This document shows, piece after piece, positions 4,077-35,453 of a stretch of 64,000 bases of DNA. Both the position numbers and the translations under genes were made by a program. The number at the start of each line of letters is the position of its first letter. The stretch's first letter is position 1. The notes under the pieces are model-generated. The model was given only the letters and a program-made list of their open reading frames with translations, did not search any database and was not told the origin of the DNA. This DNA comes from an uncultured Bacteroidota bacterium (lineage in GTDB: Bacteria > Bacteroidota > Bacteroidia > UKL13-3): the NCBI GenBank assembly GCA_903850915.1, contig CAINMV010000010.1, forward strand, positions 64,980-128,979. The letters are read 5' to 3'.

Positions 4077-7000
4077 ATGAAATCTGCACCCTTCATCCTT
4101 TTATTAATCCTTAGCTGCTGCACTAAACTAGTCGGGCAACTTCAATTTGGCAATGAGTGGATTAACTACAGCCAGGAGTATTATAAAATTAAGATTACAC
4201 AAGAAGGAATTTACCGCATAAGTTATTCTACCTTAGTAAATTCTGGGTTACCGGTGGGGGCAACTTTTAATCCCAAAAAACTCCAACTGTTTAATCTCGG
4301 CAAGGAACAGCCCATTTTTATTTCAGGTGAAGAAGATTCGACCTTCGACCAAGGAGATTATATTGAATTTTATGGGAAGAAAAACGACGGGAGTACAGAC
4401 ATCCCCTTATATAGAACGCCAGAAGAACAACCGCACACATTTTTTAGTTTGTACACCGATACCAATGCCTATTTTCTTACATGGAATAGCGCAGTGTATG
4501 GCAAACGATTAGGCTCATTTATCAATACAAACTATGCTAATTTTACACCAGAGCCTTATTTCATGCATACGTCAAATAACATATTCCTTGAAGCGTATTT
4601 TGAAGGACCCATTTATTCCACTTATGGCATCCTATCTGAATACACCGAAGGAGAAGGATGGCTCGGCAACTTCTTTAAAAAAGGACAGACACAAAATCGT
4701 GACATCAGTACGCCATACGCATATACCCCAGGACCATATCCTACGGTGCAATTACTTTGGTTTGGCCAAAGCGACGTGGATATCACGGGGACACAAACAA
4801 AAAACCATCATAGTGTTGTTAGAGTTAGCCCAAATATGACGAGTTATAGGCAGCTTATTGACACCTCATTTAAAGGATATGCCATGAACAGGAAGAATTT
4901 CACCTTGTTGAATTCAGATATTGGCAACGCTACAACACGCTTTCAGTTTTCTATTATCAACGACTTGGGATTAGTTGCTGATAATCAAAATATAGGTGGC
5001 GTTTTTCTAGCCTATGCTCGTCAATTTAACTTAGGAAACACCTCGAAGTTTAGTTTTAATTTAACTGGAGTTGTAAATGGAAACGAAAGCTACATCAACT
5101 TTGCGAATTATGCAAGCGCCAAAGTCAATCCAATTATTTACGATATTACAAATGGGTTGCGTATTGGTGGAAGCCTTTCGGGAAATGATTTAAAAGTGAT
5201 TATACCGAATTCGGGAAGCAAAAAACAAGTTTTTATTTGTGATACAACCGATATCATTTCGATTTTAGGGATAGAAAAAATGCAATTTGTGGATTATAAA
5301 ATTGCGAACAACAATTTCGATTATCTTATTATAACACATGACCAGCTTTTAACTAGCGCTGCAGATTATGCAGTTTACAGAAGCAGCACCGGATTTAAGC
5401 CAATCGTAGTTACAACAAACCAACTTTACAATCAATTTTATTATGGAATCCATCATCCAATGGCATTGCGAAACTTCTGCAGTTATGCCTTGGAAAAATC
5501 CATGACAGCTCCCAAATACTTGCTTTTATTAGGTAAAGGACAGTTGCATTATTTGGTGCGGTCTGACGCATTAGGTTATAGCTATGATTTGGTTCCTACG
5601 ATGGGCAGTCCGGCTAGTGATTACATGATCACCTCTGGATTAAAAGGCACTTATTTAGAACCTGCGATTCCTACCGGCAGGATTCCCGCAATCACCAATG
5701 CCGATGTAACGAACTACCTCAATAAACTTAAGGAATACGACGCCTTGCCTTCGAGCTTATGGCAAAAGAACATTTTGCATTTGGCGGGAGGGAGAAATAC
5801 TGTTGAAAATAATTTATTTGCGAATTATTTAAACAGCTACAAGAAAATTATTGAAGGCCCTAAGGTAGGTGGAAATGTAAAATTATATTCCAAGGACCAA
5901 GCAGTTTCAGTAAGCACAGGACTCAAAACCTATATTCAAAAAGACATTGCGGATGGAATTGGGATGCTCACCTACTTTGGACATGGCGCATCCGATATTC
6001 TTGAAATAGATTTTGGTGGTCCAGAGGAAATAAGCAACAAGGGGAAATACACAATAATGATGTTTAGTGGCTGCCTGCTTGGCAATAGCTTTACAAAAGG
6101 TTCTCTAGGCGAAAAATTCATCCTCTATCCCAATGGTGGCGCTGTAGGTTGGATTTCGAATAGTGGCTATGGCTTTACTGGTGAGCTAGATTTATTTAAC
6201 ACTAAATACTATCAAAACACCTGCATAAAGAACTATAACAAAGGGATTGGCGACATCTTAAAACAGTCGATAGCAGACTATCAAGATGTTGTTCCTGGGA
6301 ACATATACAATAACATAAACTCACGCCAATTTGCTTATGAGGGTGATCCTGCCCTTCGATTCTATTTTAAATCACAACCCGATTTTTTCATTTCCAATTT
6401 ATTTGTCGCCACTTCAAATGTTACCTCGCTCTCCGATTCTTTTAGGGTTGCAGTTGTAATTAGCAATAGTGGAGAAGCCCTAACAGACACAATAAACATA
6501 AGTTTGAAAAGAAAGCTTCCTGACAATTCCATAATAATAATACCTAGCAAACGATTAAGAGCAGCCTTTAATTCAGACACGATTTATTTTAACATCCAAT
6601 CTAAAGATTTAAAAACTGGAGGCATTAATCAATTTGAGGCATTTGTTGATGCTAGCTTTGAAATTACAGAAAGCAATGAAACAAACAACGGTTTTAATCT
6701 GCAATACTTGATGGCATCAGAAGGTGCTCAAATTATTGATCCTGCTAATTATTCTATTGTAGGAAAAAAGCCTATTAAACTTAAGGCACAGTCGAGTTCC
6801 ATCGACGGACTATCACATGCTTTTGTATTTGAAATTGATACTAATTCGAATTTCAATTCGCCATTAAAAGCCAGATCACCTTTAATTTCAAGCAGTTTCA
6901 TCGCTACTTGGGAACCGGCAATCGCATTAATCGATAGTACCGTTTATTACTGGAAGGTAAAACTAGCAAATTCTGGCAACTTAGATGCGTGGCAAAAATC

Positions 7001-9089
7001 ATCTTTTTTGTTCATAGAAAATTCGCGCGGTGGGTGGGCTCAAAAACATTTTCAACAGTTCGATAAAATTCAATGCTCCAGTATTACACTTGATACAACC
7101 CAACGTAGATTTAATTTCTCGCGCAAAACCTCCTCATTTTATAGCCTTACCACGTTTGGCCAAAATGGATCTTCCGTAAGAACACATAATCAAAACTACT
7201 GGCCAACACGCTATGGCACCATTTTAGATGGCATTTCTATCATCTCTTACAATCCCGACAATGAAGTTAGGTATAACTATCCAAGTCAATTTAATTTAGC
7301 TGTGCAGGTGCCCGATCCGTTTGCTTCTGGCAATGCAGGAACAGTAACAATAAAACAAAGTGGGACTTATTTTTTCAATACCAATAACGTTGGAAATGTG
7401 AATTACCAAGCCATTCGCGACTCTTTGCGAAACCATATTAACCGGATTCCATTAGGCAACTACATTTTTTTACATAATGGAAGAAATACAGGTGTTGAAA
7501 ATTGGGATACCGCCTTGGTGAACTGTTTTAAAAGCATTGGTGCAACAAAAATTGCATTTATTAAAGAAGGTTGGCCATACTACTTAATGACACGCAAAAA
7601 CCGTATGCCTGATGATGTAATTTATGAGCAGACAGCAGACACCATAAATGGCATTTCAGGACCTCTATTAGCACAGAAACTTGAGAAATTCACACAGATG
7701 TATCCCTTAACAACGAATGGAACAATTACCAGTGAATGGATTAATGGAGCTTCGAAATGGAATTCAGCGTATATTTGGAACAGCGGGGGTGACACCAAGC
7801 AAGATTCATTTTCTTATGATATCATTGGTCTAGACAAGCAACAAAAAGAAGTTGTACTTTATTCTGGAATAAAATCAGACAGCTTCGACATTCGCAACAT
7901 CTCGGATACCTTTTATTCGGCCATTAAATTTGCAATTCATTACTCCGACGATTCGCTCAGAACAAGCTTGCAGCTAAAACACTGGATGGTAACCTTTGAT
8001 GCACTGCCAGAAGCAAGCGTAAATACAAGCAGCAACTATTATTTTTATAAAGACACCCTTCAAGAAGGAGATAGCGTGCATTTCCAACTTGCATTCCAAA
8101 ACATCTCTGAATACAATATGGATAGCATTGATTTTATCGTTAAGTGCATCGACAATCAAAATCAGGAAGACACGATAGTTCGCCGAAGAATGCCTCCTTT
8201 AGCCGCTGGCGACACATTGATACTCAGCCATAGCTTTAGCACCTTAGGTATGGGGGGGGCAAATAAATTACAATTGATTTTCAACCCAGGCATACTCCCT
8301 GAAAAATCCTACAGTAATAATATTTATCAAAAAAACTTCTTTGTTATCAAAGACAAAATTAATCCTTTGTTGGATGTGACCTTCGATGGCATCCATATCA
8401 TTAATAACGAAATTGTAAGTCCAACTCCTCTAATACTAATTAGCGCCATTGATGAAAACAAGCTACGACTTCTTGATGACACTCAATGTTTTTCCTTGTA
8501 TTTAAGACCACCTGGAGGCAACTTAAACCGAATTGCGTTGAATTCTAGAGAAATAAAATTTAAAGCTGCAGATAGCCTAAGTAATAAGGCGATTATAGAA
8601 TTTAGACCATCTTACCTTGCTGATGGCAATTATGAATTCTCGACCAACGTAACCGATGCATCTGGTAATAAAGCGGGTATAAACGACTATATCATCAATT
8701 TTGAGGTGACGGGCACTGCCTCCATTACAAACTTCTCCCCATACCCCAATCCGGTTAACAACGCATTACGCTTTATGTTTTCACTAACAGGACCAAATAT
8801 ACCTGAAGATATTCAAATACAAATATCAACCATTGATGGTAAGCTGATTAAGACCATCTCAAAAGTAGCCTTAGGTCCGATTCATATTGGCAACAACATT
8901 ACCGCAGTGGTATGGAATGGGACTAATGAAAATGGGGATAAACTTGCTAATGGGGTTTACCTGTATCGGGTTTTTATTTCCGACAAGAGAAACACCTTTC
9001 TACATAAAAAAAGCACTATCGATGCTTATTTTAAGAGCCAAGACAAGGACATAAACAAGAACATGGGTAAGATTTATTTGATACGATAG
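4077..9089 (+). CDS. C25 family cysteine protease, PorU2-like, with FlgD-like/T9SS C-terminus
   Basis: A 1670-residue exported protein. Residues 1-20 form a signal peptide. The N-terminal half begins with the beta-rich prodomain seen in PorU-type proteins (YKIKITQEGIYRISY). A gingipain-type caspase-like domain spans about residues 400-760, with catalytic His636 in YFGHGASD and Cys666 in MMFSGCLLGN. Several Ig/CARDB-like domains follow (about 770-1540). The last 110 residues are a FlgD-like sorting domain (FSPYPNPVNN...NGVYLYRVFI). PorU itself, the T9SS sortase, lacks a sorting tail, so this is better placed with the PorU2-type paralogues: a surface or secreted protease, or an accessory sortase. 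It has no T9SS core genes beside it. Confidence 0.9.
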   Translation: MKSAPFILLLILSCCTKLVGQLQFGNEWINYSQEYYKIKITQEGIYRISYSTLVNSGLPVGATFNPKKLQLFNLGKEQPIFISGEEDSTFDQGDYIEFYGKKNDGSTDIPLYRTPEEQPHTFFSLYTDTNAYFLTWNSAVYGKRLGSFINTNYANFTPEPYFMHTSNNIFLEAYFEGPIYSTYGILSEYTEGEGWLGNFFKKGQTQNRDISTPYAYTPGPYPTVQLLWFGQSDVDITGTQTKNHHSVVRVSPNMTSYRQLIDTSFKGYAMNRKNFTLLNSDIGNATTRFQFSIINDLGLVADNQNIGGVFLAYARQFNLGNTSKFSFNLTGVVNGNESYINFANYASAKVNPIIYDITNGLRIGGSLSGNDLKVIIPNSGSKKQVFICDTTDIISILGIEKMQFVDYKIANNNFDYLIITHDQLLTSAADYAVYRSSTGFKPIVVTTNQLYNQFYYGIHHPMALRNFCSYALEKSMTAPKYLLLLGKGQLHYLVRSDALGYSYDLVPTMGSPASDYMITSGLKGTYLEPAIPTGRIPAITNADVTNYLNKLKEYDALPSSLWQKNILHLAGGRNTVENNLFANYLNSYKKIIEGPKVGGNVKLYSKDQAVSVSTGLKTYIQKDIADGIGMLTYFGHGASDILEIDFGGPEEISNKGKYTIMMFSGCLLGNSFTKGSLGEKFILYPNGGAVGWISNSGYGFTGELDLFNTKYYQNTCIKNYNKGIGDILKQSIADYQDVVPGNIYNNINSRQFAYEGDPALRFYFKSQPDFFISNLFVATSNVTSLSDSFRVAVVISNSGEALTDTINISLKRKLPDNSIIIIPSKRLRAAFNSDTIYFNIQSKDLKTGGINQFEAFVDASFEITESNETNNGFNLQYLMASEGAQIIDPANYSIVGKKPIKLKAQSSSIDGLSHAFVFEIDTNSNFNSPLKARSPLISSSFIATWEPAIALIDSTVYYWKVKLANSGNLDAWQKSSFLFIENSRGGWAQKHFQQFDKIQCSSITLDTTQRRFNFSRKTSSFYSLTTFGQNGSSVRTHNQNYWPTRYGTILDGISIISYNPDNEVRYNYPSQFNLAVQVPDPFASGNAGTVTIKQSGTYFFNTNNVGNVNYQAIRDSLRNHINRIPLGNYIFLHNGRNTGVENWDTALVNCFKSIGATKIAFIKEGWPYYLMTRKNRMPDDVIYEQTADTINGISGPLLAQKLEKFTQMYPLTTNGTITSEWINGASKWNSAYIWNSGGDTKQDSFSYDIIGLDKQQKEVVLYSGIKSDSFDIRNISDTFYSAIKFAIHYSDDSLRTSLQLKHWMVTFDALPEASVNTSSNYYFYKDTLQEGDSVHFQLAFQNISEYNMDSIDFIVKCIDNQNQEDTIVRRRMPPLAAGDTLILSHSFSTLGMGGANKLQLIFNPGILPEKSYSNNIYQKNFFVIKDKINPLLDVTFDGIHIINNEIVSPTPLILISAIDENKLRLLDDTQCFSLYLRPPGGNLNRIALNSREIKFKAADSLSNKAIIEFRPSYLADGNYEFSTNVTDASGNKAGINDYIINFEVTGTASITNFSPYPNPVNNALRFMFSLTGPNIPEDIQIQISTIDGKLIKTISKVALGPIHIGNNITAVVWNGTNENGDKLANGVYLYRVFISDKRNTFLHKKSTIDAYFKSQDKDINKNMGKIYLIR

Positions 9090-15906: not shown

Positions 15907-16015
15907 ATGCAACGTCAAATCATCAATATTTTACAAGTTGGTTATTATAGATTACTTTTTTGTTAAAGTGCCATACAATATTCCATAATTTATTCGTAAT
16001 TTGCTGTATCAAATA

Positions 16016-17593
16016 ATGCGCATCTCGTTTATAATTTTATTTTGCTTTTTTGAGCTCGTTGCCAATACTCAACATCGTGTTCTTGTTTATTTTAAGGATA
16101 AAGGACCTGAGGCTTTCGAAAAGCTTAAACATCCTGAACTTCTTTTTACGCCAGAGGCCATTGAACGTCGAATACAATCCAATTGCAATTTTGATTTACT
16201 TGACGTGCCTGTAAATCCTGAATACATTGCACTCATCGCCAGAAACGGATACAAAATTCAAAGTGTATCACGTTGGTTAAATGCCGTAATGATTGAAGCC
16301 TCGGCAGAAAAAACACCTGATTTACTGCGATTACCTATAGTGGAGAAAATTCAATTTTGGGATGAATATAATAGTACTCCTCACAACACCACCGCAACGC
16401 AAAGCATCTATAACTATGGCAACTCAACAAACCAAATAAAAATGCTGAATTTGGATTTATTGCATAATCAAGGTTATACTGGAAATCAAATTCTAGTTAT
16501 GGTTTGCGATGGCGGATTCAACAACGTGAACAACTTAGGGGCCTTTCAATACATGCGATCGAAAAACCGTATTAAGGCCACACGCGATTTCGTAAGCAAC
16601 GATGGCGATGTTTATGCAGACGATAATCATGGCGCTTTTGTTTTGTCCATTCTCGCGGCCAAACTTGATTCGGGTGTTATTGGTTCTGGCTTTGACGCCA
16701 ACTTTATGCTCGCACGAACAGAAAATGTAGCTAGTGAAACCCATAGTGAAGAGTACAATTGGCTTCTTGCCTCAGAATGGGCGGATAGTGCCGGAGTTAA
16801 AATAATTCAATCTTCACTCGGTTATAGTGACTTTGATTCCGGAGGAAATTATGCTCCAACAGCTATGGATGGCCATACTGCAATTATAACCCAAGCCGCA
16901 GTTATTGCAACACGCAAGGGAATGGTGATTGTAAATAGCGCAGGAAATGAAGGAGATAAAAATTTCCGTAAAATCACAGCCCCATCCGATGCTGATAGTA
17001 TCCTTTGTGTAGGCTCTGTATACGATAGTAAAGCTAGAGTTATGAATAGCGGTCAGGGGCCATCGGCTGATCTTCGCATTAAACCCGACGTTATGGCCAT
17101 GGGCGGAAATACGGCGTATGTAAATGGCTCCAACACTGTTTCTTTTGGAACCGGAACTTCGTTTGCATCCCCATTAATTGCAGGGTTATGTGCCTGTTTA
17201 ATGCAAAAAAACAAATACGTCACCAATATTGAGCTGGTGAATGCCGTTAAGCGCAGCGCCGACAGATTTGGCAATCCAGATACATTATATGGTTATGGCA
17301 TACCAAATGCATTTATAGCTGATACCATCTTACAAAACATTTCAAGTGGAAGGGGGATTGAAAGAATCGTAAAGTCAAACCCAAACATTATTATTAATAG
17401 CCTCGCCTCTAACGAATTAAAATTAAACATCTCAATCCAAAGACCTATCGTAATTGAAATATACAATTGCGCCGGCAAAGTAATTTGTTCAAAAGAAATT
17501 ATTACGAATCATATCGACATATCGACACTTCAATCGGGAACGTATTACTTAAAACTAAACGGACAATTTGCAGGTAAATTTTGCAAGTTATAG
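16016..17593 (+). CDS. Secreted S8 (subtilisin-like) protease with T9SS sorting tail
   Basis: A 525-residue exported serine protease. Residues 1-18 are a signal peptide and about 19-130 a propeptide-like region. The catalytic triad is Asp165 (MVCDGGFNN), His205 (DDNHGAFVLS) and Ser382 (GTSFASPLIAG), with the oxyanion Asn in VNSAGNEGD. The final 70 residues form a short Por-type sorting domain ending in SGTYYLKLNGQFAGKFCKL, so export through T9SS is expected. The ATG at 16016 is used; a TTG five codons upstream overlaps a degenerate promoter box and would blunt the signal peptide. It converges with carA. Confidence 0.9.
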   Translation: MRISFIILFCFFELVANTQHRVLVYFKDKGPEAFEKLKHPELLFTPEAIERRIQSNCNFDLLDVPVNPEYIALIARNGYKIQSVSRWLNAVMIEASAEKTPDLLRLPIVEKIQFWDEYNSTPHNTTATQSIYNYGNSTNQIKMLNLDLLHNQGYTGNQILVMVCDGGFNNVNNLGAFQYMRSKNRIKATRDFVSNDGDVYADDNHGAFVLSILAAKLDSGVIGSGFDANFMLARTENVASETHSEEYNWLLASEWADSAGVKIIQSSLGYSDFDSGGNYAPTAMDGHTAIITQAAVIATRKGMVIVNSAGNEGDKNFRKITAPSDADSILCVGSVYDSKARVMNSGQGPSADLRIKPDVMAMGGNTAYVNGSNTVSFGTGTSFASPLIAGLCACLMQKNKYVTNIELVNAVKRSADRFGNPDTLYGYGIPNAFIADTILQNISSGRGIERIVKSNPNIIINSLASNELKLNISIQRPIVIEIYNCAGKVICSKEIITNHIDISTLQSGTYYLKLNGQFAGKFCKL

Positions 17594-18791: not shown

Positions 18792-19703
18792 CTAATACAC
18801 CATCATCTTCATACAAAACACGCTACCACCGCTTTTCATGTATTCAGAAGTTTCGGTTTCATGAATTGTAAAATCAAGATCAGTCAAAATTTTTATGGCT
18901 GTGGCAGAGCCCTTTTGAATAATAGCATGCCTATATTTAGAATTGTATGGGATATGCGCATTTAGGCAAAAAGTCTGTTCTGCTTCGTATTCTGAAATAA
19001 AATGAAGATACTTGAAAAGATGTTGAATATTTTTCAAGCCATCCTCCGTAAAAGCCTCCTTGCACAAGATTACATTGTCCGTGTCAACTGGCAAAAAACA
19101 GGTATCCAGATGGTAGAATTTTGGATGCAACAGTTCCAATAACACCACTGGAACATCCAAAATTTGAGCCAACTCTTCGTGCGCATTGGCTTTACTTCGG
19201 TGACCAAATCCACCATATAAAAGCTGTTTGAATGGATGAGCAATGGTATCTCCCATGCCTTCAAATAGGTCTGTTCGTTCAAGATGAAGCGTTGTATAGC
19301 CAATTCCTTTGAAGAATTCCTCGAAATAAGGCACTTCAAGTTTACGAGAATCATGCTTCATTTTACTCATTACCACTATATTTCTACCATCTTTTACTCT
19401 CCATGGAAATGTTTGATTGGCACAAAACACCATATCCTCCAAGCCAATAGCACCGGGTATTTCCATAACCTTATCAATCACATGCATCTGCGAAAGGTTT
19501 TGATAAACAAACCTTAACGAATTCCACTGGGCCATTGCTTCATCTTTCTGTGTTTGCCCCTGAAATCCTTCCATAAAAGCATTTTTCACATCCACAATAT
19601 CAAAATATTCGGGGGTGCAAAGCAGCACATTTGTTGGCTCAGTGCGACTTTCTACGTCATCGATGGAAAATGTTAAATCGCGGGAGTAAATTTTGTTATC
19701 CAT
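18792..19703 (-). CDS. Amidinotransferase/DDAH-like pentein hydrolase
   Basis: A 303-residue cytosolic member of the guanidine-modifying (pentein) superfamily, which includes dimethylargininase, arginine deiminase and arginine:glycine amidinotransferase. Supporting marks are the acidic pair in GAIGLEDMVFCANQ (Glu89/Asp90), FGHRSKANAHEELAQIL, the catalytic His in KFYHLDTCFLPVD (His198) and the nucleophile Cys297 in SGGSVFCMKM next to the C-terminus. It probably hydrolyses a guanidino or ureido compound such as arginine, methylarginine or citrulline; the substrate is not determined. The ATG at 19703 follows a good promoter box. carA lies downstream and a second, secreted pentein is divergently transcribed. 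Confidence 0.85.
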   Translation of the reverse strand: MDNKIYSRDLTFSIDDVESRTEPTNVLLCTPEYFDIVDVKNAFMEGFQGQTQKDEAMAQWNSLRFVYQNLSQMHVIDKVMEIPGAIGLEDMVFCANQTFPWRVKDGRNIVVMSKMKHDSRKLEVPYFEEFFKGIGYTTLHLERTDLFEGMGDTIAHPFKQLLYGGFGHRSKANAHEELAQILDVPVVLLELLHPKFYHLDTCFLPVDTDNVILCKEAFTEDGLKNIQHLFKYLHFISEYEAEQTFCLNAHIPYNSKYRHAIIQKGSATAIKILTDLDFTIHETETSEYMKSGGSVFCMKMMVY

Positions 19704-19724
19704 GTTCGAATTGCGTTCTTTGTG

Positions 19725-19732
19725 CAAATGTA
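19725..19732 (-). promoter_or_regulatory. -7 promoter box for the pentein hydrolase gene
   Basis: TACATTTG on the minus strand, an exact TAnnTTTG match followed by CAC, lies 21 bases upstream of the ATG at 19703. The frame upstream of that ATG would run across this box. Confidence 0.5.
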
Positions 19733-19788
19733 AATAAACCATCTGCTTATTAAACCAGATTGTTTAACCTAAAAATCTAAATTATAAA

Positions 19789-21657
19789 ATGAAAAATATT
19801 TTCGCAGTGATTCTGCTATTCGTTTCTATACTTGCGTTCTCGCAACGCCGGAACCCCGAACTTACTCAACGTATTGCGGGCTTTAAAAGACCTGCACAAA
19901 AAACAAGTCAAGAAGTTCAGTTGACAAAACAGCGAGCTTTAAACAAAACCAATACATCGGTGTATGCTAGTTCTATCCCCTCTAACATTAAATTCCCAGG
20001 AGAATTTGAGGAATCACAGGCAGTGTGTATCAGCTGGAGTTACGACTACGACAACAACGGAATACCTACCATTGTGGATACTTCGAGCGAATATGGATGG
20101 GTAAGCGAACAACTTGCCAATGCCATTCAACCTGAATGCCCTGTATGGATTCGAGTTAAAAGCAAAAATGATACTGTTATTTTAAAACGATATATGAAAT
20201 CGCAGGCAACCCCTTTATACAATTACAAGTTTATTATTTGCCCTATGGACGACTGGTGGATGCGCGATTATGGCCCTATCGGAATTTATCATGGTGCGGC
20301 TGATAGCTTAGCGTTTTTAGATCTAAAATACTATGATGGGCGCGACTACGATAATGATTTCCCAAAGTACTTGGCCGACAGCATGCATATTGTTAGCTAT
20401 GAAACTCAGCTGAATGCTGAAGGAGGTAATATTATGACCGATGGATGGGGTAAATTATTTTTTAGTGATGTAATTACATCTACGAATACAGACATTTCGA
20501 TTCACAATCCAGCATGGACAACCAACAACACTTTAGATTCTTGTAAGAAGTATTTTGGATCGCCGACTCTTATTGAAACCAAAACATTACATTGTGATGG
20601 TGGAACCGGCCATATCGACTTATACCTTAAAATGATTGATGATGAGCATATGATGGTAATGCAAATGCCATCTGAAGTTACCGCCGTTGACAGGCAACTT
20701 ATTGAGGATAACTTACAAACTATTAAAGGCTACAGCACACAATACAACCGTCCATTCAAAATATATCGCATCCCAACTCCTACTGATAATGCCGGCAATA
20801 TTGTTAAGACATGTACGAAAATAAATAATGATGCTCGTACGTATATCAATGGAATTACAGTGAACAAAACGTTCATTTACCCAAAATATTCAGATGCAAT
20901 TGATGGCAACGTGGCTCAAGATGCTGCAGCTGAAGCCTACATTAAAAAGATTATGCCTGGCTACAAAGTTATTGGCATTGATAGTCGTGTTATTTGTGCT
21001 AATGGCGGAGGTGGTGAATTGCATTGCATTACAATGCAAATTCCAGCCGAAAATCCGTTGCGCATTTGGCATCCTTCGATTGAAGGTTACGTGCCTTTAC
21101 AATCCAAGTATCATATAATAGCCAAGGCCTCCAATAGAAGTGGAATTGCTTCTACCAAATGCTATTGGCGCAAAAAGGGTGGTGCTACTTTTAACACACT
21201 AACGTTGACTGATAGCGCAGGATATGCTATTGGTGACATTCAGGATAACACCATTACCACATCCGATGAAATACAATATTATATTGGGGCTACTAGCAAT
21301 AACGGCAAAATAGCTGTCCGCCCGATTGTGGCGCCACAAGGCTACTACCGTTTTTATTTCACCCAAGGAGTCGGTTTTACTTCAGAGGAGATAGAATTAA
21401 CAAATCATTTATTTGAAATCTCCCCAAATCCAACTAGCAATAACGCTAACCTACAATTTCAGTTGTTAGAAGAAAGTAATGTTAAGTTTATTATAACAGA
21501 CATAACCGGAAAGATAATACAAAAAATCGAATCTCATAACAATGCTGGCATTTCCTGCTTAAAGATTCAGGTTAGCGGTTATTCCACGGGCATGTATTTC
21601 TGCACCATGACTGTAAACGAAAATTCGACTATTACACGACGATTTATCGTCAACTAG
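19789..21657 (+). CDS. Secreted peptidylarginine deiminase-like protein (PF04371 type) with T9SS tail
   Basis: A 622-residue exported pentein. Residues 1-18 are a signal peptide and about 60-430 the porphyromonas-type PAD/agmatine deiminase domain. Catalytic residues are Asp160 (DDWWMRDYGPIG), His275 and Asp277 (GTGHIDLYLKMID) and nucleophile Cys413 (GGGGELHCITMQIP). An Ig-like domain follows (about 430-530), and residues 540-622 form a type A sorting domain (FEISPNPTSNN ... RRFIVN). This architecture matches the secreted P. gingivalis PPAD, which turns protein arginine into citrulline plus ammonia, and not cytosolic agmatine deiminase. Protein or peptide arginine is therefore the likelier substrate, but that is inference. 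Confidence 0.85.
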   Translation: MKNIFAVILLFVSILAFSQRRNPELTQRIAGFKRPAQKTSQEVQLTKQRALNKTNTSVYASSIPSNIKFPGEFEESQAVCISWSYDYDNNGIPTIVDTSSEYGWVSEQLANAIQPECPVWIRVKSKNDTVILKRYMKSQATPLYNYKFIICPMDDWWMRDYGPIGIYHGAADSLAFLDLKYYDGRDYDNDFPKYLADSMHIVSYETQLNAEGGNIMTDGWGKLFFSDVITSTNTDISIHNPAWTTNNTLDSCKKYFGSPTLIETKTLHCDGGTGHIDLYLKMIDDEHMMVMQMPSEVTAVDRQLIEDNLQTIKGYSTQYNRPFKIYRIPTPTDNAGNIVKTCTKINNDARTYINGITVNKTFIYPKYSDAIDGNVAQDAAAEAYIKKIMPGYKVIGIDSRVICANGGGGELHCITMQIPAENPLRIWHPSIEGYVPLQSKYHIIAKASNRSGIASTKCYWRKKGGATFNTLTLTDSAGYAIGDIQDNTITTSDEIQYYIGATSNNGKIAVRPIVAPQGYYRFYFTQGVGFTSEEIELTNHLFEISPNPTSNNANLQFQLLEESNVKFIITDITGKIIQKIESHNNAGISCLKIQVSGYSTGMYFCTMTVNENSTITRRFIVN

Positions 21658-21779: not shown

Positions 21780-24700
21780 TTAAAGCTTTACCACTTTACC
21801 ATATTTCGAATCGACACCATTAACGTTGATTCTAATATAGTAAACTCCCTTAGAAAGCGACTCAGTATTTACTTGGAATTGATTATAACCCTTTACGGAT
21901 GAAGCTTCTTTTTTGAATACTAGCCGTCCTTCGAGATTAACAACTTCTAATGTAGCCTTCCCTTTCTCTGAATATGTATACGTCACTGTTAAGATATCGT
22001 TGAATGGATTCGGCTTTACGGTTTCAATAATAGGTTGAAACGCTAAACCTATATTCACCCAACGAATCATCGAATATTCATAATCTCCTGAATAGTCTAC
22101 TTGCTTTAATCGATAATAATAAATCATTGTATTTTCCTCCAATTCTAATACATCGTTATAACCATACGATGATGTATTCGATGTTGTTCCATTGCCTTTA
22201 ATTTGGCCTATTTTAATGAAATGCAACCCATCGTTACTACGTTCAATATCGAAATAATCGTTATTGATTTCAGAGGCTGTCACCCATGTTAAATTAACAA
22301 CGCGACCTATTGCCTTCGCTTTAAATGAAATTAACTTTACAGGTAAAGGATTATTGCCTACTGCACCAAAGATGAAAGGGCTAAAACTATTTACCGAAGG
22401 CGCTTTTACGGTAAGTGCACTAGTTGTTCCTGTTACTATTGTAGCGCCAGCGGTTGCATTTTCCCAACTTTGCAAGGTGGAGTTCCAATGAGCTACGATT
22501 AAATTAGATAAAATCGTACCATTGCCAGTAAAGAAGTTAGAACCCGTTGAACCGCCACAGCCGCTGTTTGCGTTGCCATATATCGTCACATCAACTGCTG
22601 ACGTTCCAATGGTACGGTCTAACTGCCAATACTCGCAGCTATCCAAATTTAGTAATGGAGCGGTGTGAGCCGTTCCAAAAACATTATGTGGACTAGCTCT
22701 AATATATTCGGCAGTAAAGGCATCGGTAACGTTTGTTGGTGCTGAAATTGCAATAGCCTGATATCCGACACCCGTCTTTCCCGCAGGAAATACAAAAGCG
22801 ATGTTACCGGTTTTCTTCATAGGGCCATCCACAAAACTACTATCTGAGACATTACCAACACTTGCAGTGCTTGTTAAGGAAAGTAAATTCGACGCTGTCG
22901 ATATTAATTTGCCTGAAGTTAAATTTAACACACCACTCACTGAGAGTGCCCCAGCAAGTGTTTTTTGATATACCGCACCACCAGAAATAATTAATCCATT
23001 GTAATTTCCAACTACAATAGTTTGAGCCCCTGCCGCACCATAATTTACCACCGAAGTCCATGTTTTAGAAGCCGGGATTGGAGATGAAGAAGTATTTTGC
23101 GTTTTTAATGTTCCGCTACCACTATTGGAGCTAAATCCAAGTATTTTATTCGTAGTCATGTCAAAAGTAGCGCCGCCATCAATTTGAAGCGCATTAGATA
23201 CAGCAAGATCCGCAGGGGCATAGGTTTTTGTTCCAGCTCCTGATATGGTTAGATTATAATACCCCAAGGCATTCACGGATTGGGAAGAGGCTCCGGAATA
23301 ATTAACACACAAATTGCTAATGGTTTTTGTTGTTATTGGGTATTGCGTTAGAAAATCTGCTGTGCCGGTGATACGCGTTACTTTTACCGTGCCACTGCCT
23401 GTTAATGTGCCTGCACCACCTACTGTATAAGCCGCTCCTGGCTCTAATGTCGCCAATGAATTCACCGTTAAATTGCCCCCCACTATAATGTTTTGAATGG
23501 CAACAACAGCTCCTGAATTTGCAACTGTCAACTCATTAAACGCACTTGTTGAGGCTGAACCCAAAATACTATCGTTTGCCGATGTGCCATTAAACTTTAC
23601 CTTTCCTCCATTATGCGTAAACGTTCCATTATTGGTAAAATTCCCTGCAAGATACAACGTGTCCGAGGTGGCAAATAGCGTTCCAGCACTAACAGTGAGG
23701 CTATTAAACGCCTTTGTTGTACTACCCAAGAGTAATGTACCTGCCCCTGCCTTGGTTAAATTGACTGTTTGAGCATTAATTACTGCTCCAAGTGTTAGCG
23801 TATCGGCATTTACTGTTATAGTCGGACTTACATTTAATGTGATATTATTGGCGGCCAAATTTAAACTTGCCGAAGCTCCTAAATAGCCAAAATCACCATT
23901 AACTATAATAGGGTAACTTACAAGTGTGCTATCCGCGTTACTGCCATTGTCGATTGCGCCTCCATTAATGGTAAAGGTGCTTGTGGAATCGCCTAATGCC
24001 CTTGTGTTGTTTAATTTCAACGTACCTGCATTGAGCGTGGCACCGCCTCTAAACGTATTACGTTTCGAAATAGTCCAAGTTCCTATTCCATTTTTTACAA
24101 CCGCCATTGGTCCTGAAATTAAACTTGATATACTTCCTCCGGCAGCTCCTCCAAAGGTAAAGGAGGTAGCACCAGAAACTGAAGTTCCTGTTATGTTTAA
24201 CAACCCACCTTCTCCACTAACACTAGCATCAGTTGCAAGGTATAAAACCCCAATTTGAGTAGAGGCTGTTGGTGCGCTATTGGTGAGTGCCCCTAAACTA
24301 GATACACCTAAACCATTTAAAGTAATATACTCCGTAGCAGCCGAAGTTAACGAAAATCCATTCATGTCGAGGGAAGCACCATTGGCAATGTTAGTTCCTG
24401 TGGCGGATGTGGCGCCACTGGTGCCTAAGGGACCTTCGGTGGCCAAGGTGGACGATGCACCCAACTTTAAGGTTCCCGCACTTATCATTGTAATGCCGGT
24501 GTAGGTGTTTGCACCAGACAAGGTCCAGGTGCCAGCCCCCTCTTTGATTATCTTTCTATTACCAGCGATCGCAGAATCTATGTTGCCACCTACTGCACCG
24601 CCAAGGGTGATTGCAGTAGTGCCAGAAAATATCGCATAAGGCCCTTTGACTATTATCAATCCTCCTTCACCATTGATACTTGCCGCAGTGGCAAGTGTAT

Positions 24701-27700
24701 TTCTGCAGGTAAATGTTGACGTTCCTGAGGCGCTATTGGTGACTGCTCCTAATCCTGCAAAGCCAGAGCCGTTTATAGTAAGCTGCTCAGTTCCTAAAAT
24801 AGATATCGAATTTCCCAATAATGAAAACCCATTCAAATCGAGCGAAGCCCCAGAAGCTACAATTGTGCCAGCTTCAATCTGAAACCCTGATGACACCGCA
24901 CCTAATGGGCCTGAATTAGCGGCAGTAGAAGATGAAACCCCCAGCTTCAAGGTTCCATTATTGATTACTGTCAAATTTGGATACGTATTTACACCTGATA
25001 GAGTCCAAGTTCCAGCACCTTCTTTATAAATATCAATACCTGCATACGTTATAGTTGAAATTATCCCAGATAAGGTTCCATTACTTCCTGCTGTCCCATC
25101 CATATTAAGACCAAACGCCCCAAGCGCTAAAGCGCCGCTGCATGTAAGCGTACCTGAAGTTGTTGCTGTTATTGTGCTCGTTAAACCTAAAGTAATTGGT
25201 CCTTTAAAAGAGGCATTACCACCGGTGTTGGTTAATGCACCAGCGGGTGAGGCCGTTAATCCAGTTCCGTTAATGGTTAGAGGTTCAGCTGTAGAATGCA
25301 CAAATCCATTTAAATCTAAAACTGCACCTGATGCAACTGTCGTTCTTCCAGCTACGGTGCCGAGCACAGAGGTAGAAGCACCGAGTTTTAACGTACCTAT
25401 ATTAATATCAGTTGTGCCCGTATAGGTGTTAACACCTGAAAGCGTCCAAGCACCTACTCCATTTTTAGCAACCGATGTTGGAGTTGAAATTATACCTGAC
25501 ATGGTTCCTGAACTTGATGCAGGCCCATTTAATATTAATGCAAAGGCCCCAGCCACAGCACCACTGCAGGTAAGTGTGCCCGAACTTGTAGCACTAATAG
25601 TACTTGCGCCAGCTAATGTTATTGGACCGCTAAATGAGGCATCACCTCCGTTGTTGGTTAAAACGCCGGCAGGCAATGCGGTTAATCCAGCTCCATTTAA
25701 AGTAAGTGGTTCGGCCGTTGAAAGCACATACCCATTTAAATCTAAAACTGCACCTGATGCAATTGTTGTTATTCCAGCGACGGTGCCGAGAACGGAACTA
25801 GAAGCACCTAGTTTTAGTGTGCCAGAGCTTATGGTAGTTATGCCGCTGTATGTATTCGCACCAAATAATGTGATTACTCCCGTTCCACTGTATGTAATTC
25901 CGCCTGAACCATTTCCAAATACATCACTTTGAAACACATTCCCATTGCCATTAAACGTGGTTAAGAAGGTGGAATTTGCTACAGCACCTAAACTCAATTG
26001 GGTAATTCCTCCACCTACTGGGTTGGTAACTGTATAGATAGGTGCAGCAGTATGTGTGACCGAGGTAAACGATAAACCCGCTATTCCAGCAAGTACAGAC
26101 CCCCCATTTATTGTTAAAGTAAAAGCGCCTATAGTTAATGTGCCTAAGGAATGTGTAACACCAGATCCTATTGTAGCCACATCAGTTGAAATAGTAGCTG
26201 CTCCACCCACGGTAATATTGTAGGCATTTACAGATGTTGCAGTCATTAGTAACAAAGCCCCTCCATTTAATGCTAAGTTAGTAGCTGCGGTACCAAGGGC
26301 TGCTATATGGCTTAATTGCAATGTACCCGCGCTTAATGTTAGCGTTCCACTAAATGTATTGGAACCTTGCAGAATTAACTTACCTGCACCAGTAGCCGAT
26401 AAGTTTGTAGCGGAAACGGCATCGGAAATTATTGCCGTTCCCAAGGTTTTTGTAAACGACACAGGACCTGAAGTCGCAAACCCTGCTATACTTTGCGTGG
26501 CGGTGCCCGTAATAGTGAATGCACCGCTGCCTGTAATTGCGTTGGCACTAGTATTCACAAAATTACCACTTAATGAAAGTGCAAATGTTGATAAGGCTAA
26601 AGTTGCCCCAACGCCATACGTTAATGTACCTGTAACGGCTGTAGCAACGCCAAGTGTAGTTGTGCCCCCGCTAACTGTCAAATTATAAAACGTTATGAAT
26701 TTTGTTGTTGGTAGCGTAATGGTGGCTGCCAATTCAACGGTACCTGTCCCAGGTGTCCAAACAGCAGTGGAACTTGTATTGGTGATGGCTCCGTTTACCT
26801 TTAAGAGACCCCCGGCAGTCATTATAATACTACTTGCCTGGGCTGCAATTGGGCCAAGTGCCAAGCTACCTGCAATTAAAGTTGAGCCACTAGAAAACGT
26901 TATTGTGCCAATTTGAGTAGCAACTGAATTACCAACCCGAACTGCTCCTGCAACACGTAATATAGGACTAACCCCCGTTGTAAATGCAAGATTTGCTGTT
27001 CCTGCGGTATTGGCAAGCTGCAATGATTTACATGAAAAGTCACCATCCACTGTTACTGTAGTTCCTATTAGTATTGTCACCGAATCCTGCGCACCAGGCA
27101 CAACTCCGCCCGTCCATGTGGCTATGGCGCTCCAATTTCCTGTTGCAGCACTTACAATTGAGGTCGTTGCCGCTGTTGTTATAAGACCTGAATTATTTGC
27201 AAAGAAAACAGTATTATTGTTTGTAGCCCCTGTGTACCCCCATGAGCCAGTTGCTGATTGCCCTGTGCTCCCAAAAATTAGGCTATGCACAGTCGAGGAA
27301 GTATTAGTCCCAAGATTGAGAACTGCACCAGTCATGATGGACAAATATCCCGAAATTATTTTTTGTGTATTATTAATAACCATTGTTCCAGAATTAATAA
27401 TTATTCCTTCACCACCAAATGTAGCAGGCCACTCCAAACCTGCTGTTGCAGATTGATCATATTTCAACGTTGTTGAAGCTGTGTAAGTTGGAACCACTGA
27501 AACTGTTGCTGACCCAGCCATGGTTAATAGATTATTCACGATAACACTAGTAGTTGTTTTAGCACCTGAGCCGCTTAATCCTAAATTGCTATATGTGCCA
27601 GCTTGGACGGTTTGTGCGCCAAGTCCAGTATAATTTACCGTGTTTCCTGCGGCGGTCATTGTAAGCGCAGAAATGGTCGGGACCGTTGGTGTAGTATTGA

Positions 27701-30700
27701 TATTTAGCGTGCTCGTGCTTGTAGCATTATTAAATGATGTTATGATACTCGAACCCGAGTGGTTAACAATGCCACCAGCATTATTTGTTATAGCCAAAAT
27801 TGTTCCCGAACCGCTTATGTTGATGGTTCCTGTATTGGTAAAGTTAAGGAGCACTGTTGCTGATGTAGCTGCGTTGCTAAAAGCAAAAGTTCCGGCATTG
27901 GTATTGGTAGCAATTGAACACCCACCACCAGTAATATTTACAGTACCAGAAGTATTCGACAAAATGCCTGATCCCGTTATAGAAGTTGCAGAATTAATAG
28001 TACCTGTATTTGTAAGAGTTACCCCAGTAATAGTGAGCAACGTGGCAACAGTTAATGTTCCATTATTTGTATAGGCTGCTGTGAAAGTTACACTCGGAAT
28101 GGTATTTGTCGTTGTCCCTCCAATTGTATTGCTTGCTCCACTAAATGTATGCGTTCCTGTGCTGGCCGTATATGTTCCGTTATTTGATAAGCTTCCTGCC
28201 AAACCTACTGCTGCGGCTGCTGATTCATTGAGATATCCATCATTGTTAATGCTGACATTGCCTGTAAACGTTTTTACTCCTGTTGCGTTGGTAATGCCTA
28301 AGGTCGCTAAAGTTCCGTTTATTCCATCACCAATCGTGGTTGTTCCGGTAACGGTCCATGCAAAGGCACCTGCAATATTTAAGGTTGCGCTATTATTCAC
28401 TATTAAGTTACCTGCAACTGTTTTTGCAATTGTAACTTCTGTCCATGTTTTCACCCCGTTGCCAGAAATACCTAAAATATTATAATTTATATCTTTAACA
28501 GTTTGGGTTGTACCAGTATAGTTAACGGTGTTTCCAACTGCTGAAGCCACTAGTGTCGTTATTCCAGATGCACCTCCAATATTTAATATGCCGGTTGCAC
28601 CTTGTGTAAGGGTGCTAGTTCCGGAAAGTGCCGTTGTAATTGTTAGCGTACTATTGTTGGTGGTAGTATTGTTCACAAACATCGTATCATTAACAATTGT
28701 TGTTCCTCCTATTGTGGAAGTAGCTCCAGTTATTGTTAACTTGTTGTAAGTAGTGGCAAAAACAGCGGCACTGGCACCAGTGTAACTAACAGAATTACTA
28801 ACCGCACTTGCGATGAAGGAGCCTGCGCCACTTATTGGGGAAGTTGCATTTAATCTCAATTTGGAATTTGCTCCTTGGGTAAAGTTACCGGTTAATACAA
28901 TATCATTTATGGATACCGTTCCAGAATTATTATTGGTAATTGTGGTGCTATTGGCGGGTGTAACACTTCCTCCGAAAGTTATGGGTCCGGAACCTAACAA
29001 ACTAGATGACGCCAAAAATGAAGCTGCGCCAGTTCCATTAGCGAAATTATTGACGCTATTGTTAGTGACATCCGCACCAAAAATTGTTGTGGCATTACCT
29101 GAGTTAGTCCAAGTACCACCAGCAGCCACAGTAACTGCACCTGTAAAAGTTAATCCGCTAGCACCTGAAATTGTAAATGTGCCACTAGTACCTCCACCAA
29201 CTGTGGTTGCAGCTCCAATGTCCAATGTAAAAGCACCAACTGTAAACGCAGCTCCATTTCCAATTGATAATGCTCCTGTAATCGATAAATTCGCACCTGT
29301 GGTTATGGAGGCGGTACCTATAATACTTACCTCCCCACCAATAGCTGTAATTACGGGTGTAGCTGTTACTGAGCCGCTCATATTAAAACTACCTCCTAAG
29401 GTTGTAACTCCTGTCATTGTCTTTGCACCACTTCCGCTTAAGCCAAGAGTGCTATAGGCAGTTGGCATCAAAGTTTGCGCGGCGCCGGTATAGTTTACTT
29501 CATTAGTATTGGTAACGGCTTCCAATCCTAAAATTCCAGATGTTCCACCAATATTTAATACTGAACCTGCTCCCTGCGTTAATGTACCAGCCCCTGAAAG
29601 CGCCGTTGTTACTGTTAATGTGCTATTGTTAGTAGTTGCACTTGTTACCGTCATGGTTCCACTAACGGTAACGGCCCCTCCGATAGTTGCAATGCCGGTA
29701 CCATTAATGCTAAGAGAGCTGTAATTTGCAGACTTAATTGCTTGTGAGGCGCCAGTGTAAGAAACATTATTGGCATTGGTACTTGCATCAAAAGTTCCAG
29801 ATCCACTAAATGGTGCTGCATTTACTAAAGTTAACGTTGGTGTATTTAGTCCCTGGGTAAAGTTGCCCGCAAGCACAATATTATTGATAGATACCGTTCC
29901 AGAATTGCTATTAGTAAGCGTGGTACTATTTGCTGGTGTAATGCTTCCTCCGAAGTTCATAGCTCCTGAACCCGCCAAAGATTGTGTCGCAGAAAATGCA
30001 GCAGCACCCGTTCCGTTGTCAAAGGTATTCCCATTAATAATAATTCCACCTCCAAAACTAGTTGCGGGATCTTGTCCTGATAAATCCCATGTACCGCCAA
30101 CATTTATCGTAACAGCTCCTGTAAATATTTTTGTTCCTGTTGCTGCAGTTAAGGTATTTACATTGCCAGTAATTGACGATGTACCGCCAACAATTAAACT
30201 AAATCCACCTAAACTTAACGTAGCTCCAGTTCCAACGGTTAGACTTCCCGTTACTACATTATTCGCTCCGGTAGTCATGATGGCTGCACCTGTGATACTT
30301 ACATTACCACCTATCGTTGAAATTACGGGAGTAGCCGTTACTGTGCCACTAATGTTAAAACTACCACCTAGAGTTGTAATGCCTGTCATCGCAATTGCGC
30401 CACTTCCGCTTAAGCCTAGAGTGCTATAGACAATTGGCCTCACTGTTTGTGAAGCGCCCGTATAGTTAACTGTATTGGCGTTGGTACTTGCATCCAATCC
30501 TGTGATCGTCGATGAGTCTCCTATATTTAGCGTAGATCCTGCGCCTTGTGTTAATGTACCAGCACCAGAAAGAGCCGTTGTTGCCGTTAAGGTACTATTG
30601 TTGGTGGTTGCACTTGTTACCGTCATGGTTCCACTAACGGTTGTTACACCACCTATTGTGGCTGTGCCTGTACCATTAATGTTAAGTGTGCGGTAATTTG

Positions 30701-33700
30701 CTGCCTTTATTGCTTGTGAGGCACCAGTATAATTAACAGTATTGGAATTGGTACTTGCATCAAAAGTTCCAGATCCACTAAATGGTGCTGCATTTTTTAG
30801 TGTTAAAGTGGGGGTATTTAGTCCCTGAGTAAAGTTGCCCGTTAACACAATATTATTTATTAATACCGTTCCGGAATTGCTGTTGGTAAGCGTGGTGCTA
30901 GCCACTGGTGTAACACTACCTCCGAAAGTCATCGGTCCAGAACCGGCGAATGATTGTGTGGCAGAAAATGTAGCGGCACCCGTCCCATTACTAAACGTAG
31001 TACCATTGTTAGTGATTCCACCACCAAAACTTGTTGCAGCACTACCATTGTTATACCAATTGCTATATTTTGCCAACATTACTTGACCAGTGAATGTTTT
31101 CAATCCAATACCGCTGATTGATACCATACTATGTGTAGTGCCATCACCGATTGTGGTTGTCCCTCCTACAGCTAAGGTAAATGCACCAGCAATAATGACA
31201 GAGTTACTACCTATGATTGTTACATTGCCTGTAATTATTAAATTTGACCCGGTGGTCATGCTTCCTTCTATGCTTAAATCATGTCCTATGTTAGTAATTT
31301 CCGTAGTTGTAATAACATCTGCTCCTATATGAAGATCATAATTAACGGTTGTTACTCCTGTCATCACCAAAGAACCTGTTCCTGATAAATTAAGGGTACC
31401 ATAGGCAACAGGCTTCACTGTTTGTGATGTGCCGGTATAGTCAACCGTATTGGCATTGGTACTCGCATCAAAAGTTCCAACCCCACTAAATGGTGTTGCA
31501 TTTGCTAACGATAATGTTGGAGCATTTAGTCCCTGCGTAAAGTTACCCGTTAACAAAATATTATCTATATATACCGTTCCAGAATTGCTATTGGTAAGCG
31601 TGGTACTAGCTGCTGGGGTAACACTTCCTCCAAAAGTCATAGCTCCTGAACCCGCCAAATATTGTGTCGCAGAAAAGACAGCGGCACCCGTTCCGTTGCT
31701 AAATGTGTTAACGCTATTGTTGGTAATACCTGCGCCAAAACTAGTTGCTGGATTTTGCCCTGAAAAATCCCATGAACCGCCAGAATTAATCGTAACTGCC
31801 CCTGTAAATGTTTTTGTTCCTGTTGCAGCAGACACCGTATTTACTGCACCTGTAATTGAGGAGGAGCCACCAATACTTAAACTAAATCCACCTAAACTTA
31901 ACGTCGCCCCGGTACCAACAGTTAAACCACCCGTTACTGCATTATTAGCTCCGGTGATCATGGCGGCAGTACCTGTGATGCTTATATTACCTCCGATAGT
32001 TGTAATTAAAGATGTAGCTGTTACTGAGCCACTCATAATGAAATCTCCTCCAATTGTGGTAACGCCTGTCATTGTTTTTACACCACTTCCGCTTAAGCTA
32101 AGAGCGCTATAGGCAGCAGCCTTCACAGTTTGCATGGCTCCGGTATAATTCACCGAGTTGGCATTGTTACTTGCTTTTAGCCCTGTAATAGCAGTAGTGC
32201 CTGCAACATTTAATGTAGAACTGGCGCCTTGCGTTAAGGTATCAGCCCCGGAGAGAGCTGTTGCTACCGTTAAGGTGCTATTGTTGGTGGTTGCACTTGT
32301 TACCGTCATGGTTCCATTAACGGTAATAGCTCCGCCAATAGTTGCAATGCCTGAACCATTAATGGTAAGATTGCTGTAATTTACTACCTTAATTGCTTGT
32401 GAGACGCCAGTATAATTAACTGTATTGACATTGGTACTTGCATCAAAAGTTCCAACCCCAGTAAATGGAGTTGTATTTGCTAACGTTAAAGTTGGAGTGT
32501 TTAATCCCTGAGTAAAGTTACCCGTTAATACAATATTATTTATAGATACCGTACCGGAATTGCTATTGGTAAGCGTGGAGCCAACAGATGGTGTAACTCC
32601 TCCCCCGAAAGTGATAGCCCCAGAACCTGCCAAAGATTGTGTCGCAGAAAATGCAGCAGCACCAGTTCCGTTGCTAAATGTGTTAAAACTATTGTTGGTA
32701 ATACCTGCGCCAAAACTAGTAGTGGAATTACCTGAGTTGGTCCAAATTCCACCAGTGGCAATGGTAACTGAGCCGGTAAAGGTTTTTAAACCAGCACCAG
32801 AAATTGTTAATGAACCGCTTGTGCCAGCTCCAACTGATGTTGTATTGCCAACGCCTAATGTAAAAGCACCTGCAGTAAAAGCAGCACTATCTCCAATGGT
32901 AAGTGAGCCTGTTATCGCTAAATTCGCTCCGGTTGTCATGGCGGCGGTACCTGTAATTCTTGTATTACCAGCAATCGTTGTAATTACGGGTGTAGCCGTT
33001 GCTGCGCCGCTCATGTTAAAATCCCCTCCAATTGAAGTGACGCCTGTCATTGTTTTGACTCCGCTACCAGATAAGCCTAAGTGATAAAAGGTTCCTGTTT
33101 TAACCGTTTGTGCACCAGCGCCCGTATAGTTAACTGTGTTTCCTGTTGCTGTAACTGTTAATGTTGTAATAGTTGGAACCGTTGGTGTGGTAGTAATTTT
33201 AAGGGTACTTGCAGCTGCATTGGTAAAAGCTGCAATTGTGCCCGAACTACTTAGGTTAACAATACCCCCATAGTTGTTTGTAATACCTGTAATAGCACCA
33301 GAACCACCAAGATTAATAGTGCCGGTATTGATATAATTAGCCAATGCTGTAGTTTGAAGGCCAGATCCAGTTATTGAAATATTTCCACCATTAATTAGCC
33401 TTGTTATTGATGACGCTGCTCCAATATTTAATGTTCCTGAATTTATTAGGGTGCCAGTACCAGCAAGAGCTGTACCCACTTTTATTATTCCACTATTTTG
33501 ATATGTTCCACTTATTGTTACTCTTGGGAAATCGGTGATTACACCGCCACTTATTAATTTACCTAGTCCCGAGAATGTATGAGCAGCTGTTCCAATTCCT
33601 GTAAATGTACTTGCATTATTGGTAAAGTTACCAGCAAAATCATAGGTATTCACATCTCCATTTACACCAGCGGCAGGTTCAGTCCAAACAGCATTAGTTT

Positions 33701-35264: not shown

Positions 35265-35453
35265 GATTGCAGTACTATACTTGAAAAGCAGATTAGCCCA
35301 TTTTAAAATGTGCATTTTCTGCATTTAGCTAGGTTGTATACGGTATTATGTGAATTCGGAATTATGTGAAATTTATTTAATGAAACGGATAACTTATCAA
35401 AAACAGGCAGGGGAAATCCTTAACAGTGGGATTTTTATTGACATTAAAATTGA

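Follow-up and report, generated by a model that had tools for sequence, protein, structure and literature searches.

PPAD, from Porphyromonas gingivalis, is usually presented as the unique bacterial enzyme that citrullinates proteins, and it is tied to periodontitis and rheumatoid arthritis. Its structure (Protein Data Bank (PDB) codes 4yt9 and 5ak7) comprises a pentein catalytic domain and an Ig-like domain, and the precursor also has a signal peptide and a sorting tail of the type IX secretion system (T9SS). In its active site, R152 is indispensable and is joined to the carboxylate of the substrate by a double salt bridge. R154, which contacts the carboxylate together with the carbonyl before it, matters less, with about 30% of the activity left in the R154A variant; Tyr233 closes the active site over the carboxylate. 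R152 and Tyr233 are described as the clamp on the C-terminal carboxylate, with which a substrate extended beyond its C-terminal arginine would clash (PMC4487231, PMC4893104). The human endodeiminase PAD4 also keeps the R152 equivalent (PMC4487231). A wider distribution of PPAD-type genes than had been assumed was noted earlier (PMC8826395). Bacterial agmatine deiminases (AguA, TIGR03380) have the pentein fold, the PF04371 domain and the catalytic residues in common with the protein described here, and in the plant enzyme D220, four residues before His224, binds the agmatine amine (PMC6447857).

Domain organisation and fold

The deiminase gene under study, called PAD below, lies in a window of 64,000 nucleotides (the whole stretch of DNA analysed) from an uncultured Bacteroidota bacterium, and its product is organised as follows:

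19789..21657, + strand: secreted PPAD-like deiminase, 622 aa (open reading frame with ATG start; PF04371; T9SS tail; PPAD as top PDB match by sequence and fold)
19789..19842, + strand: putative signal peptide, residues 1-18 (MKNIFAVILLFVSILAFS, then cut before Q), judged by eye
19984..21072, + strand: catalytic pentein domain, about residues 66-428 (profile, PDB and model matches)
21073..21372, + strand: Ig-like domain, about residues 429-528 (phmmer alignment with PPAD to residue 522; model strands 366-466)
21418..21654, + strand: T9SS type A sorting domain, residues 544-622 (profile match)

The PF04371 profile (PAD_porph) matches residues 69-419 with an E-value of 1.1e-43, and PAD is the one PF04371 protein of its genome. 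Searched with phmmer against the PDB, it finds PPAD first (1.2e-21), over residues 123-522 and hence across the catalytic and Ig-like domains, whereas agmatine deiminases follow at 1e-9 or worse and align with the catalytic domain only. The N-terminus, MKNIFAVILLFVSILAFSQ, has by eye the appearance of a signal peptide, and the T9SS itself is encoded in the same genome, where the gldN family occurs twice, as two GldN-family proteins above the cut-off. The PPAD-like architecture put forward by the original prediction is thus borne out by the PF04371 match, the T9SS tail and the order of the phmmer matches.

An AlphaFold model of residues 60-529, based on 56 sequences, reached a pLDDT of 95.4 and a pTM of 0.93. 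The structural comparison with PPAD that had been proposed as a check points in the same direction, as the top seven Foldseek matches in the PDB are all PPAD (E-values from 1e-41 to 2e-39, about 470 columns), followed by structures of the agmatine deiminase type (1e-25, about 370 columns). The fold is shared with PPAD at a TM score of 0.75 by query and 0.84 by target, and about 22% of the structurally aligned residues are identical.

Regarding the surroundings of the gene, a scan for promoters and terminators gave results no better than shuffled sequences. A subtilase (S8) with a T9SS tail, a possible supplier of peptides, is encoded nearby (16001-17593, + strand), and an ORF of 4514 aa resembling a repetitive secreted protein (21780-35324, - strand) is convergent with PAD.

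Active site and substrate clamp

The residues discussed in this section are found at the following positions:

20266..20268, + strand: D160 (PPAD D130), invariant in the clade and preceded by W157 (PPAD W127) and R159
20329..20346, + strand: YYDGRD, residues 181-186, with D183 at the position of PPAD R152 and R185 at that of R154 (alignment)
20593..20619, + strand: substrate-closing (Michaelis) loop CDGGTGHID, residues 269-277 (clade alignment)
20830..20850, + strand: DARTYIN, residues 348-354, with N354 at the position of PPAD N297 (clade alignment)
21025..21027, + strand: C413, catalytic Cys (PPAD C351; clade alignment)

D160, H275, D277, N354 and C413 align with PPAD D130, H236, D238, N297 and C351 and are invariant among the 56 aligned relatives of the clade. 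Four of them (Asp160, His275, Asp277 and Cys413) had been named beforehand and hold at those numbers, and N354, not listed then, completes the set, so that PAD has the catalytic W, D, H, D, N and C of PPAD, besides the equivalent of R154. The latter is located in a segment where phmmer aligns FIYNRPRPNDDEFP to LKYYDGRDYDNDFP without gaps, so that R154 corresponds to R185 and R152 to D183. The suspicion that only one clamp arginine is aligned and that the carboxylate-binding site is changed is consequently confirmed as a trait of the whole family: the R154 position is Arg in 56/56 relatives and the R152 position in none of the 56, where D, P, E, S, A and other residues stand instead. Meanwhile, the Tyr233 position, G272 in the Michaelis loop, is Gly in 55/56 relatives, and Tyr is not universal among the PPAD-type enzymes either (9/17). 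The clamp of R152 and Tyr233 is lost throughout the clade, with the R154 equivalent retained. Further PPAD residues are replaced, C239 by Leu or Met and T180 by Glu, whereas the loop CDGGTGHID, whose DGGTGHID-type signature is invariant in the clade, and the arginine R350 are absent from PPAD.

As both R152 and Tyr233 are missing, recognition of the peptide end must differ from that of PPAD, and extended or internal arginines may be accepted because the residues that would collide with them are gone. However, PPAD cannot do without R152, and a substrate other than a peptide would explain the loss of this residue equally well. The retention of the R152 equivalent in PAD4, an endodeiminase, also speaks against the reading.

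R350, four residues ahead of the catalytic Asn, is Arg in 56/56 clade members; at this position none of the listed PPAD-type enzymes has Arg, and 30/30 agmatine-deiminase-like proteins have Ala. R350 may substitute for R152 or serve as a latch of the loop through D270. If the former, PAD would be an exodeiminase of C-terminal arginine like PPAD, in which R185 and R350 grip the carboxylate in place of R152 and R154, a reading that we regard as unlikely. It agrees with the fold and domains, which are as in PPAD, with the restriction of R350 to this clade relative to PPAD-type enzymes and agmatine deiminases, and with its place in a segment that lines the PPAD active site (PMC4487231). However, that segment frames the ammonia/water channel of PPAD and not the carboxylate end, R350 may pair with the invariant D270 instead, and Tyr233 has been lost as well.

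Position among related deiminases

A tree of the catalytic domain (58 rows) separates the clade of PAD (support 100/98) from the PPAD-type enzymes (100/99) and from the agmatine deiminases (100/100); the placement of six intermediate rows, all on long branches, is uncertain. PAD possesses the catalytic set, the R154 equivalent and the Ig-like and T9SS layout of PPAD, but it lacks R152 and Tyr233 and does not cluster with PPAD, and the name PPAD should not be used for it. Clustering with the agmatine deiminases, set beforehand as the outcome that would speak against a PPAD-like enzyme, is not what the tree gives.

An exported agmatine deiminase is accordingly very improbable. Agmatine-deiminase-like proteins provide the best PF04371 matches in the phylum, and PAD resembles AguA in the Glu at the T180 position, the Asp five residues before the His and the Cys motif (E211, D270 and GGxxHCIT, common to both clades), besides a weak match to TIGR03380; however, that match stays at 81.1 bits, compared to a cut-off of 381.8, and the tree keeps the two groups apart. 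The position of the amine-binding Asp is Asp in 30/30 agmatine-deiminase-like proteins of Bacteroidota and Gly in 56/56 members of the PAD clade (G271 here), and PAD has no NAWGGK insertion of the kind seen in agmatine deiminases, while R185 and R350 are missing from AguA. In addition, of the two enzymes, PAD alone has the export signal, the Ig-like domain and the T9SS tail, and across 62 genomes of the order, including that of PAD, AguB, the N-carbamoylputrescine amidase, never exceeded its cut-off.

PAD orthologues, about 44-50% identical, are present in 37/64 genomes of the order, whereas the four other genomes of its genus all lack one. A single-sequence scan of genome contigs gave no match; an alignment-based scan of GTDB yielded the 79 loci used here. 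Members of the same clade occur in Chitinophagales, Flavobacteriia, Ignavibacteria and Kapaibacteria. The claim of a PPAD-like enzyme outside Porphyromonas thus stands as to its presence, but not as to rarity, as the clade is common in the order and reaches other classes. No functional description of it was found in the literature searched. Meanwhile, PPAD-type enzymes with both R152 and R154, in the motif YNRPRPND (L109, L110, L111, L112, L113, L116-L120, L122, L123, L124 and L125), are found in MAGs of Bacteroidales, Cloacimonadota, Marinimicrobia, Zixibacteria, GN15 and Fermentibacteria and in an archaeal MAG, some of them with T9SS tails, such as L109.

Some loci of the clade show peculiarities of their own. 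Members from Tenacibaculum (L097 and L098) include two tandem copies in L098 (1283-4951 and 5680-9402), the downstream one, of 1241 aa, having four fn3 stretches, carbohydrate-binding modules CBM5/12 and a T9SS tail. In L093, the PAD gene is divided between two frames (5830-6984 and 7044-7661), as a decayed copy or through a sequencing error.

Divergent partner gene and proposed function

PAD is preceded by a gene on the opposite strand, a pairing not present with PPAD:

18792..19742, - strand: divergent partner resembling an arginine dihydrolase of the ArgZ type, 316 aa, with a likelier start at 19703 (sequence matches, conserved pair)

The partner belongs to the same superfamily as PAD and matches cyanobacterial ArgZ/AgrE at 5e-36. 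As in the N-terminal domain of those enzymes (PDB codes 6jv0 and 6lrf), it has the FxAN motif (FCAN, with Asn in place of the first substrate Asp, compared to FTAN in ArgZ), HLD and the catalytic Cys, here in GGSVFC. However, it stands alone, without the ornithine cyclodeaminase domain, and remains below the NCBIfam cut-offs for arginine dihydrolase (NF052232, 152.9 bits, cut-off 450) and dimethylargininase (141 bits, cut-off 300). The citrullinase CtlX was considered and rejected, as it has FPNN and HTN (PMC9007349) compared to FCAN and HLD in the partner.

Among genomes of the order, 16 possess the ArgZ-like gene, and in 15 of them it adjoins PAD divergently; their co-occurrence has a Fisher p of 0.0005, with shared ancestry ignored. 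The GTDB scan found the pair at 22 loci, adding Chitinophagales, with PAD identities among pairs down to 40% and with varying genes outside the pair; the pair itself may simply have been inherited from one ancestor. Of two complete genomes, that of Chitinophagaceae bacterium LGM1 has the divergent pair and that of Bacteroidetes bacterium UKL13-3 lacks it. Elsewhere in Bacteroidota, the ArgZ-like gene often occurs on its own (97/392 genomes; the loci that were read had no PAD on either side), suggesting a use of its own. The conserved divergent partner, which the original prediction leaves unmentioned, is the best functional clue.

The space between the two genes also varies. A small protein of about 160 aa with a signal-like start is encoded there in loci of the Chitinophagales type (L078, L079, L080, L093, L099 and L100), the L078 copy having no Pfam or NCBIfam match. 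The palindrome TTCGAA is located at 19705-19710 of the window, immediately before the partner's likely start codon, and is also intergenic in L058, L059, L060, L061, L063, L064, L065 and L081. It was not convincing as a regulon signal, with seven matches before start codons in the genome versus four for the reversed control.

Regarding the fate of ornithine, the genome encodes an ornithine aminotransferase (657 bits, cut-off 378), with no relevant neighbours at its locus, and a dehydrogenase of P5C (L-glutamate-gamma-semialdehyde; 770 bits). At seven loci that lack an ArgZ-like gene, a P5C dehydrogenase is encoded directly upstream of PAD (804 bits, cut-off 614). The same seven (L048, L049, L050, L051, L052, L056 and L067) have, if the contig extends far enough, a Prc-like tail-specific protease directly downstream on the same strand.

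Alternatively, PAD might be secreted to deiminate or dihydrolyse free arginine and so provide the cell with citrulline or ornithine, which would suit the loss of the clamp, the encoded ornithine route and the activity on free arginine of characterised relatives of the partner. This reading seems doubtful, since the active sites of deiminases acting on free substrates are closed and these enzymes lack additional domains (PMC4487231), and since the R154 equivalent, which is linked with a preference for peptides, does not vary in the clade.

The reading preferred here, with a probability of roughly one half, is that PAD represents a separate clade of T9SS-exported deiminases acting on peptide arginine, with a C-terminal recognition unlike or looser than that of PPAD and a role in arginine scavenging. 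Its inferred parts are the export of PAD, its action on peptides with a relaxed specificity, the import of the products and the coupling to metabolism. After export through the T9SS, PAD would convert arginine of extracellular peptides or proteins to citrulline and ammonia. To judge from the conserved residues, the chemistry should be that of a PPAD-type deiminase, by a Cys-His-Asn mechanism with the guanidinium held by D160 and D277 and with R185 taking the part of R154, the arginine that binds the peptide carbonyl in PPAD. The products would be imported, and the presumably cytosolic ArgZ-like enzyme could convert arginine (or citrulline) to ornithine, which ornithine aminotransferase and P5C dehydrogenase would turn into glutamate. 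As PAD lacks two grip residues of PPAD and is paired with a gene of arginine breakdown, it probably has a different, nutritional job. A more specific proposal, to be taken as tentative and rather improbable as a whole, is that of a widespread exported clade citrullinating internal as well as terminal arginines, the former because the C-terminal clamp of R152 and Tyr233 is missing, and coupled to cytosolic arginine dihydrolysis as a module for scavenging nitrogen from peptide arginine.

An environmental Bacteroidota clade with the build of PPAD, another substrate grip and a conserved arginine-catabolic partner would show the role of such enzymes outside a host. The PAD clade is a natural comparison for the model that relates specificity to R152 and Tyr233, and it is a candidate for citrullinating proteins in environmental bacterial communities.
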